A DNA stretch of 64,000 nucleotides from Chloroflexota bacterium (GTDB lineage Bacteria > Chloroflexota > Anaerolineae > Anaerolineales > Villigracilaceae): the NCBI GenBank assembly GCA_016223135.1, contig JACRPQ010000006.1, positions 1 through 64,000 of the forward strand, in the 5' to 3' direction. The notes below the pieces were generated by a model. It had not been told where the DNA came from, did no database searches, and saw nothing but the letters and a program-made list of their open reading frames with translations. The translations under genes were made by a program, and so were the position numbers. Positions 13,260 to 19,989 of this stretch are shown one piece after another (the stretch's first letter is position 1; each line of letters starts with the position of its first letter).

Positions 13260-13889
13260 CTACCTGCCGCGCAGATACGAGATGACTGCCCCCATCAGCC
13301 CAAACAACGCCAGGCTGAGAATCAGCAAACCAGCAGGCAGTCGCGTGGGAGAGGCGTCGGTGGCGGTCGGCTCATTGAAAGAGGGCAGTTCGAGGGGCGG
13401 AGGAGGCGTAAAGGTCGGCAGACGCGTCGGCGTCTGTTGACCGATAAAGGCGGCTTCCAAAGTCGGGTTGATGGTGGGCGTCGAAATCGGCGTGGGCGTG
13501 GGCGGCGCATCTACCCGCGGCAAAAAAGCCCCGGCCGAAAGTTTTACATACAACGCATACACCCACCCTGTGGAGCCCGGCACGCCCGGATAGCGAATCT
13601 GGATCCAATCATCCCTGTCTTTGGCGCGCCCCAATGCAGGAGCGGTTTCGTTTGCCAGCAGTACCCCAATCCGAGGGTAATCAAAGGAACCGGGTCCCGC
13701 ATAAACATAGATAAAATTCAGGCTGGGGTCCACCCGCACCATGGGACCGCTGGGCGTGCTGGTCACCGTTGGCACGGAGCCGGTCGGCTGCTGCGCCAGC
13801 GCAATCTGCTCATGCGGAAAAAGCGCTCCCAAAAGAAACAAACCAGCCAGGACAGCCGCAAACAGGATAGTCTTGCGAAACGACAACAT
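13260..13889 (-). CDS. Secreted, C-terminally anchored SH3b-like protein (2)
   Basis: 209 residues. A signal peptide (LFAAVLAGLFLLGALF) is followed by a domain resembling bacterial SH3 (FIYVYAGPGSFDYPRIGVL ... GSTGWVYALYVKL). Then come a Pro/Thr-rich linker (PTPTPISTPTINPT) and a C-terminal membrane helix ending YLRGR. SH3b domains often bind peptidoglycan or other ligands at the cell surface. It is a tandem paralogue of the upstream gene, whose stop is three bases before this start. The two copies share the linker motif PTFTPPPPLE. The exact function is unknown. Confidence 0.8.
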   Translation of the reverse strand: MLSFRKTILFAAVLAGLFLLGALFPHEQIALAQQPTGSVPTVTSTPSGPMVRVDPSLNFIYVYAGPGSFDYPRIGVLLANETAPALGRAKDRDDWIQIRYPGVPGSTGWVYALYVKLSAGAFLPRVDAPPTPTPISTPTINPTLEAAFIGQQTPTRLPTFTPPPPLELPSFNEPTATDASPTRLPAGLLILSLALFGLMGAVISYLRGR

Positions 13890-13892
13890 ACG

Positions 13893-14483
13893 TTATTGCT
13901 TGCCTAGAACCAGCGAGACAAAGAAAATCACAGCCGCAATGAACATCAACCCCACAGCCACTGCACCGGGCGCCAAGCCGTTGGCTCGCGCGGGGGGAAC
14001 CTCGGTAAATTGCGGCACCTCCAGCGGCGGCGGCGGTGTAAAAGTCGGAACGCGCGAAGGCGTAGGTTGAAAAATGAATGCGGCGGCAAATGTCGGGTTA
14101 ACGGTGGCGGTGGCAATCGGCGTTTGAGTCGGCGGCGGCTCCACCACCCGCAACTCCCCTCCCGAAATGGTCACATACGCCGCATACACCCATCCCACCC
14201 CGCCTGGCGCGGAGGGAAACGCCACCTGCACCCATTCCCGCCCCGGCGAAACCCCCAACGCAGGCAAAACATCGCCCGGCGACACTTGCCCGACAATCGG
14301 ATAAAAGACCGTGCTGGGACCGCCGCGCACGTTGATCGGATCGGAATACGTAACCGTCGCCACAGGACCGGAACTCTGCGCTTCGCCCTCCGCCTGAACC
14401 TGCTTCGGCATCCCAAGCATCACCGCCCCGACGATGACTCCGGCTGCCAGCAAACCGACAACTTCAAACCAAATTCGCTTCAT
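13893..14483 (-). CDS. Secreted, C-terminally anchored SH3b-like protein (1)
   Basis: 196 residues if started at MKRIWFEV (14483); upstream in-frame starts exist. An N-terminal hydrophobic segment (VVGLLAAGVIVGAVML) precedes the SH3b-like block DPINVRGGPSTVFYPIVGQV ... GVGWVYAAYVTIS. A Thr/Pro linker and a C-terminal membrane helix (VGLMFIAAVIFFVSLVLGK) complete it. RGGPS resembles the RxGPS motif of SH3b domains. It is paired with its paralogue and divergent from the zinc-ribbon gene; no ligand can be inferred. Confidence 0.8.
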   Translation of the reverse strand: MKRIWFEVVGLLAAGVIVGAVMLGMPKQVQAEGEAQSSGPVATVTYSDPINVRGGPSTVFYPIVGQVSPGDVLPALGVSPGREWVQVAFPSAPGGVGWVYAAYVTISGGELRVVEPPPTQTPIATATVNPTFAAAFIFQPTPSRVPTFTPPPPLEVPQFTEVPPARANGLAPGAVAVGLMFIAAVIFFVSLVLGKQ

Positions 14484-14544
14484 ATCGTACATAGATAGGA
14501 TATACATGAAATACGACGACAATCGTCGCCGTTTGCAAAAGGAT

Positions 14545-14557: not shown

Positions 14558-15142
14558 ATGGAACGTCGAATTTTTCACGGCAGCATCACCCCCAGCGACA
14601 TTGCCCAGGCGCTTATGGCGGAATTCAACCGCGGCAATCTGCACGCACAAACCATCGGGCAGGCGGAAAAACTTGCCGTTCAAATCGCCACCCGCGACAA
14701 TGCCAGCGCCGGCGGGCAGACCGCTCTCACCGTCTCGATTCAAAAAGTGGAAGACGGCGTGATGATCGAAATCGGTCAGCAAGCCTGGCTGGGAGTGGCG
14801 GCAAGTTTGGGAATGACCGCCTTCTCCGCCCTGCGCAATCCCCTCAGCCTGCTGGGGCGGCTGGACGATTTGGCGCAAGACATTGAAAACCTGCAACTTC
14901 AGGAACGCGTCTGGCGTGTGATTGACCGCACAGCCGCGGCGCTTGGCGTCTCTCAGGAACTTTCGGAACGCTTTCAGCGCGTTGTGTGCGAATATTGTCA
15001 AACCGCCAACCCGCTCGGCGAGGGCTCCTGCCTGGCATGCGGCGCCCCGCTGGGAAATGTACAGCCATCCACCTGTCCTCGCTGCGGCTTTGTCGTCGGT
15101 CAAAAAGACGCCGCCTGCCCCAATTGCGGTCAGAAGTTGTAG
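14558..15142 (+). CDS. Hypothetical protein with two C-terminal zinc ribbons
   Basis: 194 residues. The first 120 residues are unrecognised; around residue 70 a short apolar stretch (WLGVAASLGMTAFSAL) could associate with a membrane. The C terminus has CEYCQTANPLGEGSCLACG and CPRCGFVVGQKDAACPNCG, two CxxC-CxxC ribbons likely to bind zinc. It lies divergent from the SH3b pair and upstream of fhaA, separated by an inverted-repeat element. I do not assign a function. Confidence 0.75.
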   Translation: MERRIFHGSITPSDIAQALMAEFNRGNLHAQTIGQAEKLAVQIATRDNASAGGQTALTVSIQKVEDGVMIEIGQQAWLGVAASLGMTAFSALRNPLSLLGRLDDLAQDIENLQLQERVWRVIDRTAAALGVSQELSERFQRVVCEYCQTANPLGEGSCLACGAPLGNVQPSTCPRCGFVVGQKDAACPNCGQKL

Positions 15143-15237
15143 TCTTTTAAACCAAAAAGGCAAACGCTGCGCTTGCAGTTTTCCTCCCAACCCCCTATAA
15201 TAGACTTCAAACGAAAATCTGCGTCATCTACAGATGA

Positions 15238-15346
15238 GTCCAGTAAAAACTCACCGCAGAGACGCCAAAAACGCAGAGTCATTCATTACTGTATATCTCC
15301 GCGTTACTCTGCGGCTCAGCGGTGAATGACCTTTTTGCAGTAAAGT
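15238..15346. repeat. CACCGCAGAGACGC inverted-repeat element
   Basis: TCCAGTAAAAACTCACCGCAG at the left is opposed by CTGCGGCTCAGCGGTGAATG and CCTTTTTGCAGTA at the right. A second copy of the same organisation is at 31065-31158. No gene lies in 15143-15385. Confidence 0.7.
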
Positions 15347-15385
15347 CATAAACAACAGGTCAAAAAGATCACGCGGACCCGGATT

Positions 15386-16240
15386 ATGAATATAAACTTC
15401 GATCAACTGGAAGCCAGACTTCAGGCGCTGTTCGAGAACCAAATCCTCTCCATTTTGCCGGGGGTGTCACGGGAGGAGCGTCTGATTCAGAAACTGGCGC
15501 TGGCATTGCGGCAAAATATCGTCGAGCAAAAGGAAGAGGGCGCTTTTGCCCCCAACACCTTCACCCTTATTGTCGCCAAAGGAGCCGAACAGCGCTGGAA
15601 AGAACCGCGCGTGATGAACGCCCTCAAAAACGTCATCAGCGCGGCGGTAAAAGAAGTGGGACTGAAAATGGAATCCCAGCCCATCATCACGATTACCACC
15701 GATGAGACTTACTCAGAAAAGGATGTCTCCATCATCGCTTCCCATACGCTTGAACCTGTGGAGGATACGAAAGGCATGGCTATGGAATCGGAAAAATCCA
15801 GCGGAAACGCCGAACCCTTTCCTGAAAATGCGTTTCTGATTGTGGAAGGCGTCAAAGTCTTCCCTCTTAAAGAACCCGTGATCAACGTGGGGCGGCGGCT
15901 CGAAAACCACCTGGTCATTGATGACCCTCGCATCTCCCGCAACCATGCCCAACTGCGCGCCATCAACGGACGGTATGTCATCTTCGACCTGAACTCCACC
16001 GGCGGCACCTTCGTCAACGGACAGCGCACCAGCCAGACCGTGCTATACCCCGGTGACGTCATCTCCCTTGCCGGCGTCGCCCTCATCTTTGGACAGGATA
16101 CTCCCCCTCCCCGCCTCGACCTCAACGACACCCTGCCTCTCAAAGACGCCGACTCCAGCGAGCGTCCCACCGCCGCCCTCGATCAGGATACGGTAGATAT
16201 TCGAACCGGCAGCCTCAAAGACACCAAATCGCACAAATGA
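15386..16240 (+). CDS. FhaA-like protein (DUF3662-type domain plus FHA domain)
   Basis: 284 residues. The N-terminal 110 residues match the domain found in actinobacterial FhaA (LEARLQALFENQILSILPG ... EPRVMNALKNVISAAV). After a linker comes an FHA domain (about 165-245) with GRRLENHLVIDD, SRNHAQL and LNSTGGTFVNG, the phosphothreonine-binding residues. In Mycobacterium, FhaA links Ser/Thr kinase signalling to cell-wall synthesis. No kinase or phosphatase gene is adjacent here. It overlaps the next gene by four bases (ATGA). The start has no clear Shine-Dalgarno. Confidence 0.88.
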   Translation: MNINFDQLEARLQALFENQILSILPGVSREERLIQKLALALRQNIVEQKEEGAFAPNTFTLIVAKGAEQRWKEPRVMNALKNVISAAVKEVGLKMESQPIITITTDETYSEKDVSIIASHTLEPVEDTKGMAMESEKSSGNAEPFPENAFLIVEGVKVFPLKEPVINVGRRLENHLVIDDPRISRNHAQLRAINGRYVIFDLNSTGGTFVNGQRTSQTVLYPGDVISLAGVALIFGQDTPPPRLDLNDTLPLKDADSSERPTAALDQDTVDIRTGSLKDTKSHK

Positions 16241-16704
16241 CTGCCACTGTCGTTCTTGTTTTGCGGATTGGGCTTGCCGTCCTTCTCTACGCGTTTCTCT
16301 GGCGGGTTATGCAATCACTCTGGCAGGACCTCAAAGGGCAAAGTACATTTCTCCTCTCGCAAAGAACGCCCGGCATCCTTGTAAATGCCCACACGGAAGG
16401 CGGCGCAGAACTCAATCACCACTTCCGCCAGACGGAAATCATCATCGGGCGCGGCGCAAACTGCGACATCACCCTGAACGACGAAGCCCTCTCCGCCCGC
16501 CATGCCCGTCTGTCCTTTCATCACGGGCAATGGTGGCTCGAAGACCTCGGCTCGACCAATGGCACCTTCCTCAACAAAGACCGCATCAAGGTGCCAACCG
16601 TCATCATCACTGGCGACCAATTCCAATGCGGCAACACGTTCTTCTCCCTTCGCATTGACCAAATATCCCCCATCGTCCACAACGAAATTGGAGACTTGCA
16701 ATGA
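16237..16704 (+). CDS. FhaB-like membrane-anchored FHA-domain protein
   Basis: 155 residues: one N-terminal membrane helix (VVLVLRIGLAVLLYAFLWRVM) and a C-terminal FHA domain with GRGANCDITLNDEALSARHA and DLGSTNGTFLNKDRI. The phosphothreonine-binding Arg, Ser/His and Asn residues are present. This is the FhaB (FipA) layout of actinobacteria. It overlaps fhaA by four bases upstream and mtnP by four downstream, so all three are one transcript. Confidence 0.87.
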   Translation: MTATVVLVLRIGLAVLLYAFLWRVMQSLWQDLKGQSTFLLSQRTPGILVNAHTEGGAELNHHFRQTEIIIGRGANCDITLNDEALSARHARLSFHHGQWWLEDLGSTNGTFLNKDRIKVPTVIITGDQFQCGNTFFSLRIDQISPIVHNEIGDLQ

Positions 16705-17564
16705 CCGAACAAGTAAGCCTGGCAATCATTGGCGGCTCAGGGCTGTATGCCATGCAGGGGCTTGCCAACACCAAAGAACTGAACATAGATACCCCCTTCG
16801 GTAAACCCAGCGCGCCCATCGTCGTCGGCACCCTCGAAGGGCTGCGGGTTGCCTTCCTTGCCCGTCATGGCATTGGGCATCACATCACCCCAAGTGAAGT
16901 GCCTTATCGCGCCAACATCTACGCCTTGAAATCCCTGGGCGCACAGCGCATTGTCAGCATCAGCGCCTGCGGTTCCCTCAAAGAGGAACTTGCCCCCGGT
17001 CACATCGTCATCCCCGACCAAATCTACGATAACACCCACAAACGTGCGCGTTCGTTCTTCGGCGAAGGCTTCGTGGCGCACGTTGGCGTGGCAGAGCCAT
17101 TTTGCAGCGACCTTTCCGGGCAGGTGGAATCAGCCGTCAGGGCGGCGGGAGGCGTCGTTCATCGCGGCGGAAGCCTCATCACCATCGAAGGTCCGCGCTT
17201 TTCCACCAAAGCCGAATCCAACACCTACCGCGCCTGGGGCATGTCCATCATCGGCATGACCGCCTCGCCGGAAGCCTTCCTGGCGCGCGAAGCGGAAATC
17301 TGCTATGCCACCATGGCGCACGTCACTGATTACGACGTTTGGCATGTCAGTGAAGCGCCGGTCACCGTCGAAATGGTCATCCAGACCTTGAACCGCAACA
17401 CCGAACTCGCGCAGGAAGCGGTGCGACTCCTTGTCCGCAACTTCAGGCACGAACGAAAATGCGAGTGCGGGCATGCCCTTGCAACCGCCATGATCACGCG
17501 CCGCGACGTCATCCCCCCCGAAACGCTTCAAAAACTGGACCTGCTCGTCGGCAAGTACATGTGA
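16701..17564 (+). CDS. mtnP: S-methyl-5'-thioadenosine phosphorylase
   Basis: 287 residues. It phosphorolyses methylthioadenosine to adenine and methylthioribose-1-phosphate, the first step of methionine salvage or purine recovery. Marks are IIGGSGLYAM, the phosphate site RHGIGHHITPSEVPYRANIYALK (in pieces: RHGIGHHITPSEVPYRAN), SACGSLKEELAPGH, and IEGPRFSTKAESNTYR with VIGMT-type TASPEAFLAREAEICYA. The motif combination fits the MTAP branch, not inosine or guanosine phosphorylase. It is translationally coupled to the FHA gene. Its place between fhaB and a RodA gene is unusual, since in actinobacteria a phosphatase gene sits there. Confidence 0.93.
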   Translation: MTEQVSLAIIGGSGLYAMQGLANTKELNIDTPFGKPSAPIVVGTLEGLRVAFLARHGIGHHITPSEVPYRANIYALKSLGAQRIVSISACGSLKEELAPGHIVIPDQIYDNTHKRARSFFGEGFVAHVGVAEPFCSDLSGQVESAVRAAGGVVHRGGSLITIEGPRFSTKAESNTYRAWGMSIIGMTASPEAFLAREAEICYATMAHVTDYDVWHVSEAPVTVEMVIQTLNRNTELAQEAVRLLVRNFRHERKCECGHALATAMITRRDVIPPETLQKLDLLVGKYM

Positions 17565-17577
17565 CGCCGCCCGCCTC

Positions 17578-19989
17578 ATGAAACGCACTCTTCAAGGCAG
17601 CCTGCTGAAACTCGCAGGGGGATTTCTCTTTCTGCAAGCCCTGCTCATCACCCTTGCGCCCGCCGTCCGCGAACGGACGTGGAACGTCAGCCTGCCGTGG
17701 ACACATTGGCTGGCGTTCCTCCTTTGGGCGGGGTTTGCGGCGCGCATCCACGCCGACCTCGAAAAACGTCTGCCCGAAGCCGACCCCTACCTCTTCCCCG
17801 TCGCCGCCCTGCTGACCGGCTGGGGCATGCTTGCCATCTGGAGCATTGACGCGGACTTTGGCGCACGGCAGGCGCTCTGGTTCGCCATCAGCCTGCTCAC
17901 CTTTCGGGCAGCGCTCCGCCTGCGCTCGCTTCAATTCCTGCAGCGCTACAAATACGTCCTGCTGGGAAGCGGCTTGGCGCTCACTGCGCTCACCCTGCTC
18001 TTCGGCGTCAACCCATCGGGCTTTGGTCCGCGCCTGTGGCTGGGATGCTGCGACATCTACATCCAGCCGTCCGAACCGCTAAAGCTTCTGCTCATTGCCT
18101 ATCTTGCCGCCTATTTTTCCGATAAACTTCCTTACCGCCTGCGCATCATCCACATCCTTTATCCCACCATCGTCCTCGGCGGCATTGCCGTCCTGCTCCT
18201 CATCGCCCAGCGTGACCTCGGCACTGCCTCCATTTTCCTCGCGCTCTACACCATTCTCGCCTATCTCGCCACCAGCCGCAAAGTCATTCCCATCGTCAGC
18301 GTTCTGGCGCTGATGGTGGTCGGCGCGGCAGGATATTACTTCGTCAACATCGTCCAAATCCGCATCGAAACCTGGCTCAACCCGTGGAACGACCCGCAGG
18401 GCGGCTCCTATCAGGTCGTGCAGGGGCTGATTGCCATTGCCAACGGCGGCGTGGAAGGACGAGGACCCGGGCTGGGGGCGCCGCGCCTCATCCCTGTCGC
18501 CATCTCCGACTTCATCTATGCCGCGATTGCGGAACAAACGGGTCTTTTCGGGACCTTGGGCTTGCTTGCCCTCTTTGGCATTCTCATCACCCGAGGCTTG
18601 CGCATCGCCCTGCGCGCCCCCGACCTCTTCCGCCGCCTGCTTGCCGCCGGCATATCGGCGTACATCGGCGTGCAAGCCATCCTGATTGTGGGAGGCAACA
18701 TCCGCCTCCTGCCGCTCACCGGCGTGACGCTTCCTTTTGTTTCCTACGGCGGCTCATCCCTGCTGACTTCCTTCTCCGCCCTGCTCGTCCTGCTCTTCAT
18801 CAGCAACCACATGGACGAGGATCCCGCCCCCCTCGAAAACGCATTCCCCTATGTGGCGTTGAACAGCGCGCTTCTGATTGGCTTGTTCGCCGCCGCCCTG
18901 GCAACCGGCTGGTGGGCGGTAATCCGCAGCCCCGACCTGCTTGCCCGCAGCGACAACCTGCGCCGCGTCATCGAGGAGCGTTATGTGCCGCGAGGCGCAT
19001 TGCTTGACCGTTCCAATACGCCCATCACCATCACCAGCGGCGAAATCGGCTCCTTCAAACGCAGTTATCTCTATCCCGCTTTGTCTCCGGTAACAGGTTA
19101 TGACGAGCCGACTTACGGACAGGCAGGGCTGGAAGCCGCGCTGGACGGCTACCTGCGCGGTCTGGACGGAAACCCCGCCTCGACCATCTGGCTGAATCAT
19201 CTGCTCTATGGCACGTCGCCGCACGGCTTGGATGTGCGCCTGAGCATTGACCTCTCGCTGCAAGCCCGCGCCGATGAGTTGATGGCGGGACGGCGCGGCG
19301 CGGTCATCCTGCTCAATGCACAGAGCGGCGAGGTTTTGGTCATGGCGTCGCATCCCACCTTCGACCCCAATCGGCTGAACGAAACCGCCGCCGACCTGCT
19401 GAGCGACCCGCACAAGCCGCTCATCAACCGCGCTGCGTTGGGCGTATATCCCACCGATTCAATCATGGAACCATTTGCCCGCGCGCTCTTCGGAAGTTCA
19501 AACCTCACCCCGGCGCAATGGCAGACGGTGTATGAGGCGTTTGGGTTTCTCCGCACGCCGCAGGTGAGAATGAATGCCTCTTCTTCCGCCAGCGACGGGC
19601 AGGATTTTTACGTCTCGCCGCTGCAAATGGCGCTGGCTTCAGCTGCCTTGAGCAATCGGGGAACCATCCCTGCGCCGCGCATTGCGCTGGCAGTCAACAT
19701 TCCGCGTGAGGGCTGGGTGGTGCTTCGGGAGGAGGGAATGCCTCTCGAAGCGTGTCAGGCTTCGGCGGCGGAAGAAGCGGCGCGGTCGTTTGTCGAGGCG
19801 GGAGAAAATGTCTGGTCGCACGTCAGCCGGGCGCAGGGAGCGGAATCGTCTGTTGTCTGGTTCATCGGCGGGACTTTGCCGGACTGGCAGGCTTCGCCGC
19901 TGGCAGTGGTCGTCCTGCTCGAAGAGGATACTCCAGCCGCGGCGGCGCAGATTGGGCGCGAACTGTTGAGCGCGGCAATGACCCCCTAA
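17578..19989 (+). CDS. RodA/FtsW-type SEDS protein fused to a degenerate penicillin-binding transpeptidase domain
   Basis: 803 residues. Residues 1-430 are SEDS with about 10 helices; the conserved loop reads LNPWNDPQGGSYQVVQGLIAIANGG (part: NPWNDPQGGSYQ) and late PLTGVTLPFVSYGGSSLL. SEDS proteins polymerise glycan strands from lipid II. A further helix (LLIGLFAAALATGWWAVI) leads to a PbpA-like region: VPRGALLDRS, SIDLSLQARADELM, RRGAVILLNAQSGEVLVMAS, SPLQMALASAAL. The transpeptidase SxxK is replaced by SIME (S628-E631), and no KTG triad is seen, so the domain should be inactive. It starts 13 bases after mtnP. The fhaA-fhaB-rodA-pbpA order mirrors mycobacteria. Confidence 0.87.
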   Translation: MKRTLQGSLLKLAGGFLFLQALLITLAPAVRERTWNVSLPWTHWLAFLLWAGFAARIHADLEKRLPEADPYLFPVAALLTGWGMLAIWSIDADFGARQALWFAISLLTFRAALRLRSLQFLQRYKYVLLGSGLALTALTLLFGVNPSGFGPRLWLGCCDIYIQPSEPLKLLLIAYLAAYFSDKLPYRLRIIHILYPTIVLGGIAVLLLIAQRDLGTASIFLALYTILAYLATSRKVIPIVSVLALMVVGAAGYYFVNIVQIRIETWLNPWNDPQGGSYQVVQGLIAIANGGVEGRGPGLGAPRLIPVAISDFIYAAIAEQTGLFGTLGLLALFGILITRGLRIALRAPDLFRRLLAAGISAYIGVQAILIVGGNIRLLPLTGVTLPFVSYGGSSLLTSFSALLVLLFISNHMDEDPAPLENAFPYVALNSALLIGLFAAALATGWWAVIRSPDLLARSDNLRRVIEERYVPRGALLDRSNTPITITSGEIGSFKRSYLYPALSPVTGYDEPTYGQAGLEAALDGYLRGLDGNPASTIWLNHLLYGTSPHGLDVRLSIDLSLQARADELMAGRRGAVILLNAQSGEVLVMASHPTFDPNRLNETAADLLSDPHKPLINRAALGVYPTDSIMEPFARALFGSSNLTPAQWQTVYEAFGFLRTPQVRMNASSSASDGQDFYVSPLQMALASAALSNRGTIPAPRIALAVNIPREGWVVLREEGMPLEACQASAAEEAARSFVEAGENVWSHVSRAQGAESSVVWFIGGTLPDWQASPLAVVVLLEEDTPAAAAQIGRELLSAAMTP

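Follow-up and report, generated by a model that had tools for sequence, protein, structure and literature searches.

Gene and domain organization

The DNA analysed here, henceforth referred to as the window, is a 64,000-nucleotide stretch of a Chloroflexota genome (GCA_016223135.1, contig JACRPQ010000006.1). The gene under study lies on its forward strand at 17578-19989 and encodes a SEDS-family glycan polymerase candidate fused to a class B penicillin-binding protein (PBP). It is a single ATG-started open reading frame (ORF) of 803 amino acids with no internal stops, in which a SEDS domain carrying the presumed catalytic Asp is followed by a class B PBP devoid of the transpeptidase motifs. 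The same protein was found from end to end (94% identity, residues 1-803) in Anaerolinea sp. TT109_57_62, and a homologue with 47% identity is present in Anaerolineales bacterium Kmv39. Because of the Anaerolinea sp. TT109_57_62 record and the 138 family fusions described below, a local assembly error was ruled out as the origin of the fusion. Features of the locus are listed in Table 1; the AlphaFold2 model cited there was built from 84 aligned sequences drawn from the surveyed loci.

Table 1 Features of the fusion gene and of the genes upstream, with positions in the window. pLDDT, predicted local distance difference test; pTM, predicted template modelling score.
Feature	Position	Strand	Evidence
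SEDS and motif-less class B PBP fusion, 803 amino acids	17578..19989	+	Single ORF; AlphaFold2 mean pLDDT 92.0, pTM 0.87
SEDS half, residues 1-415	17578..18822	+	PF01098, E 5e-70; structural match to 8bh1_A
Extracellular loop NPWNDPQGGSYQ, residues 268-279, including presumed catalytic Asp D272	18379..18414	+	Loop residues invariant in 138/138
Linker and PBP membrane anchor helix, residues 416-470 (helix 423-449)	18823..18987	+	Model secondary structure; conserved residues
Pedestal (dimerisation) domain, residues 471-573	18988..19296	+	PBP_dimer_2 at 472-552, below cut-off; conservation 0.749
Pseudo-transpeptidase domain, residues 574-803	19297..19986	+	PF00905 positions 1-50; match to 3upp_A
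Former SxxK, now S-I-M-E, residues 628-631	19459..19470	+	HMMER alignment to SxxK of A. baumannii PBP2
Shortened stretch, SxN segment missing, 48 residues	19471..19614	+	Median 118 in intact partners
Former KTG place, now H-V-S, residues 748-750	19819..19827	+	Alignment; model strand 745-753
FhaA-like protein, FhaA_N just below cut-off, and FHA domain	15386..16240	+	Profile match
FhaB-like single-FHA protein	16237..16704	+	Profile match
S-methyl-5'-thioadenosine phosphorylase, encoded after the FHA genes and before the fusion	16701..17564	+	TIGR01694 above cut-off

The SEDS half

The PF01098 profile gave a match at residues 94-412 (236.7 bits against a cut-off of 26.4). The loop NPWNDPQGGSYQ and the PVSYGGSS-type end noted in the original prediction are both present, the exact end being LPFVSYGGSS. 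D272 of the loop, which we take to be the catalytic Asp, aligns with an Asp of Thermus thermophilus RodA and is identical in all 138 family fusions, as are R262, W266, W270, Q279 and Q282. The Asp of the large SEDS extracellular loop is described as catalytic (PMC6207328). The modelled half matched the structure of Pseudomonas aeruginosa FtsW (8bh1_A; Z 37.1, root-mean-square deviation (rmsd) 2.3, 327 residues aligned) and, in sequence, T. thermophilus RodA (6pl5_A; E 1.7e-29). By all the sequence features examined it is a SEDS protein, and we infer that it polymerises glycan. The earlier label "RodA-type" needs a qualification: the NCBIfam FtsW model scored higher than the RodA model (246.9 versus 205.9 bits), both below their own cut-offs.

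The penicillin-binding protein half

PF00905 matched residues 574-634 only, corresponding to the first 50 of its 299 positions (38.3 bits, cut-off 22.1), and PBP_dimer_2 fell slightly short at residues 472-552 (25.8 bits, cut-off 27). The fold motifs that had been recognised earlier, GAVILLNAQSGEVLVMAS at residues 574-591 and SPLQMALASAAL at residues 680-691, are in place. It had also been claimed that the active-site SxxK reads SIME and that KTG is missing, and both observations were borne out: SIME faces S-T-I-K of Acinetobacter baumannii PBP2 in the HMMER alignment, and K[TS]G occurs nowhere in the 803-amino-acid ORF. To these losses can be added that of SxN. The spacing from SxxK to SPLQ is 48 residues in the window protein and 50 (median) in the family, compared to a median of 118 in intact homologues.

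The comparison of the predicted structure with PbpA that had been proposed earlier was made at the level of the fold, and Mycobacterium tuberculosis PbpA (3upp_A) was the best structural match of this half (Z 38.9, rmsd 2.7, 335 residues aligned at 25% identity over model residues 464-802). PBP2 of T. thermophilus (6pl5_B) was matched by sequence instead (E 4.4e-13), as 6pl5 was not among the 50 structural matches listed, most of which are PBP entries. Given the structural matches to PbpA and FtsW and the sequence matches to 6pl5, the folds of both halves are kept in the prediction. In the model, a pedestal and a transpeptidase fold follow the membrane helix, which is the architecture of a class B PBP; the former SxxK lies at the start of helix 627-638 and the KTG place is on the strand given in Table 1. 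Since SxxK, SxN and KTG are all absent, the PBP half is not to be classed as a penicillin-binding transpeptidase.

Motif loss across the family

The 152 genomes surveyed from the family of the window genome were searched for the fusion, and an ORF was counted when its alignment ran from residue 60 or earlier to residue 600 or later of the window protein. One ORF covers both halves in 138 of them; 130 of these reach both ends (within 20 residues of the start and past residue 790), and contig ends truncate some of the remaining eight. The 14 genomes lacking a spanning ORF comprise seven in which the gene is fragmented or interrupted by a contig or frame break (G201, G235, G258, G259, G293, G311 and G321), the frame breaks of G259 and G293 being on one contig, and seven with no match better than E 3.6e-61 (G236, G266, G283, G299, G301, G307 and G318).

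At the Ser and Lys positions of SxxK, neither residue is present in 103 of the 138 fusions, Ser alone in 30, Lys alone in four and both in one (L157), which leaves 137 without Ser-x-x-Lys. The SxN segment is missing in 133 and replaced by G-x-P in the remaining five. KTG was found at the expected place in none (two sequences have gaps there); the first residue of the triplet is His in 65, the commonest forms being HVG (17), HIG (9) and HTG (8). A sequence-based search of the 138 fusions for another Ser/Lys pair and a KTG-like strand filling the active site did not reveal either as common to the family: Lys stays below 50% in every aligned column of the PBP half, and an alternative Ser/Lys dyad shared by the family was rejected for want of a conserved Lys. 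HTG can serve catalysis in certain serine peptidases of this superfamily, and a transpeptidase with displaced catalytic residues would be consistent with the His-first triplets and with L157, which combines HTG with Ser and Lys at the old site. The motif counts and the missing Lys nevertheless make such an enzyme very improbable.

Selection and conservation

Selection was estimated from 48 disjoint pairs of family fusions, 15 of which were dropped as saturated. In the 33 retained, the median ratio of nonsynonymous to synonymous substitution rates (dN/dS) was 0.084 for the SEDS half, 0.105 for the linker, helix and pedestal, and 0.136 for the pseudo-transpeptidase domain, where the highest single value was 0.296. 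Selection on the fusion within the family is purifying. A decaying, functionless gene, to which the lost catalytic motifs and the single-contig frame breaks in two of the 14 non-spanning genomes might point, deserves almost no credence: the frame is open in 138 of 152 genomes, the presumed SEDS catalytic Asp is invariant, the dN/dS medians lie between 0.08 and 0.14, and neither values near 1 nor frequent frameshifts were seen.

Conservation was expressed as the mean frequency of the commonest residue per segment. Within the family the SEDS half scored 0.717, the pedestal was the highest of the segments compared and the former active-site block the lowest, at 0.42-0.44 (0.421 over residues 626-680). 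The pedestal, active-site block and KTG block scored 0.749, 0.438 and 0.452 in the family fusions, 0.571, 0.585 and 0.641 in the 22 intact partners described below, and 0.499, 0.347 and 0.332 in 46 other dead partners, figures that are comparable only within each set as the sets differ in breadth. In the intact partners, which serve as the control, conservation of the pedestal is close to that of the active-site block. Judged from these alignments, constraint in the family is gone from the active site and retained in the pedestal. Within the linker and helix region, W446, R450, R457, N460 and R462 are present in 138 of 138 sequences. Between pairs with SEDS identities of 0.5-0.6, the PBP parts share a median of 38% identity when dead versus 46% when intact (293 and 50 comparisons, respectively).

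The conserved remainder of the transpeptidase domain may leave room for a binding role too. Like many pseudoenzymes, the dead shell could act as a reader that binds stem peptide, glycan or another protein of the envelope and serves to gate or position the SEDS half. Purifying selection on the PBP half is in keeping with this, as is the retention of parts away from the old catalytic centre: the SPLQ helix scores 0.732, and W713, W746, W761, W770 and E782 are present in 133-137 of the 138 sequences. The old active-site block, however, is the least conserved segment, which makes a conserved ligand in the old cleft unlikely, and overall we regard a reader as an unlikely, although not negligible, explanation.

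Distribution and history in the phylum

Searches were extended to 199 genomes of the class and 400 of the phylum, and loci with a SEDS gene of the same type were fetched with their flanks; those outside the family are the strongest among the matches listed and not a random sample. The survey of Chloroflexota for this fusion and its motif loss, advised in the original prediction, thereby yielded 76 scored SEDS/PBP pairs, eight of them representing the 138 family members, with 54 dead and 22 intact partners. L157 was scored as dead for its missing SxN. The intact partners all lie outside the family; Ser and Lys of SxxK and the SxN motif are present in 22 of 22, and KTG in 21, the remaining sequence being cut by a contig end. 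All three are absent from each of the 46 dead partners outside the family, and across the scored partners outside the family the motifs are lost or kept together. Two further loci were left unscored, L225 because of a contig end and L197 because of a low-complexity replacement. In L197 (G006), a PbpA-like protein that is otherwise intact and has an intact KTG, a stretch rich in Glu, Leu and Gly takes the place of the active-site region; this is probably an assembly fault, its congener L195 being intact.

Dead partners span 16 families (f1, f4, f5, f10, f16, f20, f22, f35, f41, f46, f48, f50, f53, f54, f55 and f65, the codes being the survey's own labels) and intact partners 12. Among the 54 dead partners, 36 are fused and 18 are separate proteins. 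All 35 fusions scored within the class of the window genome are dead. One intact pair is also fused: L262 (G466, family f101), from outside the class, is a 967-amino-acid ORF with SxxK, SxN and KTG present. A scheme in which fusion occurs only after death of the active site was dropped on account of this protein.

A maximum-likelihood tree was built from 91 SEDS domains, leaving the degenerate PBP half aside. It contains 75 of the 76 scored pairs, intact L229 having been omitted as too short, together with 15 rows without a scored partner, several of which are a distant SEDS outgroup. Of the dead pairs, 53 of 54 fall in one clade (support 99/99) that also has one intact pair, L195 (f7), among its deepest lineages; the remaining dead pair, L261 (f65), is placed elsewhere. 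The tree requires at least two changes between dead and intact and eight between fused and unfused, counts that do not distinguish loss from gain. The former stays at two with L157 treated as dead or as unscored and becomes three with L157 treated as intact. A quick tree of 82 rows, made before the last 20 loci were added, gave two and six changes, respectively. These results fit a single loss of catalysis within the clade, subsequent to the split of the f7 lineage, and another outside it, with fusion changing repeatedly.

Genomic context

Two FHA genes and a thioadenosine phosphorylase gene precede the fusion, with ends that overlap or lie close together. Among family loci with enough flank, at least one same-strand upstream FHA match was found in 114 of 130, and a phosphorylase homologue lies upstream in 102 of 134. 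As counts of FhaA-like and FhaB-like genes may share one FHA gene, separate matches were recounted, and two such same-strand upstream matches were found in 75 of 89. No PstP-type phosphatase was present among the four genes scanned at 14558-17564, no dedicated phosphatase search being made, and no PASTA domain (PF03793) was matched at E 0.001 in the whole genome, a search that did not extend to kinases without PASTA. Upstream of the FHA cluster, two adjacent 209-amino-acid ORFs on the minus strand (13260-13889 and 13893-14522) look like paralogues by eye; in each, a start resembling a signal sequence is followed by a central domain and, towards the C-terminus, a hydrophobic segment.

The genome (3.82 Mb, 98.4% complete) has two more SEDS genes, and that of the window is therefore its third. 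One accompanies MreB-, MreC-, PBP2-, Min- and RodA-like genes in a cluster on contig C18, and the other lies with FtsI and FtsW in a dcw-like cluster on C3; the Mre, Min and dcw names were assigned by eye from the sequences. A separate active class B PBP, whose presence had been raised as a question by the original prediction, has three candidates: PBP2, FtsI and a MecA_N-type class B PBP on C3 have motifs intact by eye, as does a class A PBP on C19. With four such PBPs, a cross-linker acting in trans is available. The MecA_N type is the kind to which Bacillus subtilis PBP3 belongs. Two MecA_N matches per genome were seen in G019, G055, G083, G146 and G163 (f20) and in G483, G513, G543 and G644 (f53 and f54).

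A class A PBP-like protein encoded elsewhere in the same genome, beyond the window, appears to be dead in both domains (L249:1569-4100; C12:23068-25596). Its GT51 Glu motif reads SDPNFWKHAG, and SSLD, NDY and LGQ stand in place of SxxK, SxN and KTG. In a search of 41 genomes, 29 of the best 30 loci were aligned, including its own copy; 27 lack the glycosyltransferase Glu, and the motifs are kept in L298 and L299 alone. The lineage retains a second pseudo-PBP.

The presence of a RodA/PBP2 set by the MreB-like genes and of an FtsW/FtsI set means that the third SEDS protein may be dispensable for ordinary rod growth or division. Its glycan could then be left deliberately uncross-linked, or be cross-linked late, for a special layer or stage, the dead partner keeping transpeptidation away. 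This is improbable; in Actinobacteria, growth and cell length have been linked to the FHA-associated rodA-pbpA locus (PMC6554272, PMC11898655).

Comparison with known systems

In its FHA genes beside a SEDS/PBP gene, the locus resembles the actinobacterial FhaA-FhaB-PstP-RodA-PbpA-PknAB locus (PMC6554272, PMC11898655), and with the M. tuberculosis RodA-PbpA system it has in common same-strand upstream FHA genes and a PBP half whose best structural match is PbpA. M. tuberculosis PbpA, however, is a separate protein crystallised as a beta-lactam acyl-enzyme (3upn, 3upo, 3upp), and its FHA-linked locus has PstP, PknA and PknB, whereas the window cluster contains a thioadenosine phosphorylase gene and its genome no detected PASTA domain. 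The RodA-PBP2 and FtsW-FtsI complexes (6pl5, 8tj3, 8bh1) resemble the window protein in the SEDS fold with its catalytic loop, in the membrane helix and pedestal, and in the transpeptidase fold; the window protein differs in that its transpeptidase domain is covalently attached and lacks SxxK, SxN and KTG.

Separation of catalysis from service to the SEDS partner has been described with altered proteins. An engineered Escherichia coli RodA-PBP2 fusion with the same chain order is largely functional and continues to polymerise while mecillinam blocks PBP2, and changes in the PBP2 pedestal activate RodA (PMC6207328); unlike the window protein, this fusion has an artificial linker and a catalytic PBP2. 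Action of MreC on the pedestal has been proposed (PMC10257715). In B. subtilis, division is supported by PBP2B even when this protein is catalytically inactive (PMC8078798), and Clostridioides difficile SpoVD S311A partly supports asymmetric division via its SEDS partner (PMC12713402). Both proteins serve a SEDS partner without catalysis, as proposed here, but they keep their active sites, and their inactivity is engineered or drug-induced, whereas in Chloroflexota the motifs have been lost by evolution in many families. Among the open-access titles listed in literature searches, none concerns a SEDS-PBP fusion occurring in nature or a SEDS partner that is naturally dead, which is weak evidence of absence; PMC8406291 yielded neither fusion nor Chloroflexota terms, and fusion terms led to nothing of use in PMC8262863 and PMC8657477.

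Proposed role of the fusion protein

The original prediction proposed that a covalent, apparently dead partner may act as an allosteric activator of glycan polymerisation. The motif-less covalent partner and its wide conservation were found as described; covalency itself is probably not the key feature, because among the 54 dead partners 18 are encoded separately, and the SEDS tree shows fused and unfused dead pairs intermingled. Fixed polymerase residues, a kept pedestal, a freed active site and a kept fold together form the pattern predicted for a partner that only activates. We consider it likely that this third SEDS protein, of the FHA-linked RodA/PbpA type, is a glycan polymerase with a built-in non-catalytic PBP that serves as activator and scaffold, cross-linking being left to others. 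The PBP membrane helix and pedestal would keep the SEDS half active or ready for activation and might receive signals from partners such as the neighbouring FHA proteins, the transpeptidase domain would be retained as a folded shell, and the strands would be cross-linked in trans by PBP2, FtsI, the MecA_N-type PBP or the class A PBP.

Several observations weigh against this likely role as activator and scaffold. L157 (G253) is the sole family fusion in which Ser and Lys persist at the old site, together with HTG and without SxN, which may represent a residue of activity, drift or chance. L262 indicates that fusion and catalysis are compatible. Outside the family, pedestal conservation in dead partners does not exceed that in intact ones (0.499 versus 0.571, in sets of differing breadth), and conservation of the SPLQ helix and of parts of the C-terminal strands is unexplained by a role of the pedestal alone. 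The missing PASTA domain weakens the phospho-signalling part of the proposal. The idea that a MecA_N-type PBP replaces the lost activity as cross-linker was not confirmed, since the link between its presence and a dead partner is loose: it is present in 48 of 54 genomes with a dead partner and in 15 of 22 with an intact one, counts from related genomes to which no significance test was applied, and is absent from G350, the genome of the separate loss. Finally, inactive C. difficile SpoVD gave no heat-resistant spores (PMC12713402), so catalysis is not dispensable everywhere.

A broader proposal, which is more tentative, is that in a large Chloroflexota clade one SEDS protein has shed transpeptidation by its partner, leaving polymerisation and cross-linking to different proteins. 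The dead partner would be a dedicated activator, and the polymerase would therefore be expected to be indifferent to beta-lactams; its strands might be cross-linked later or never.

So far, engineered or drug-treated proteins from a small number of model bacteria have been used to ask whether a SEDS protein depends on its class B PBP for catalysis or for activation. Evolution seems to have separated these roles, with motif-less partners in 16 families of one phylum among the scored pairs, both halves in one chain in many cases, and, in the single family for which it was estimated, strong selection for retention of the protein. Pedestal conservation and the freed active site indicate which surface may be important for activation; structural work and lipid II assays would be well served by a single-chain SEDS synthase unable to cross-link. 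The results suggest that a large group of Chloroflexota has kept the cross-linking partner of a cell-wall builder only as a protein that looks dead and often shares the builder's chain, and that the role of this partner is to switch the builder on and not to cross-link.

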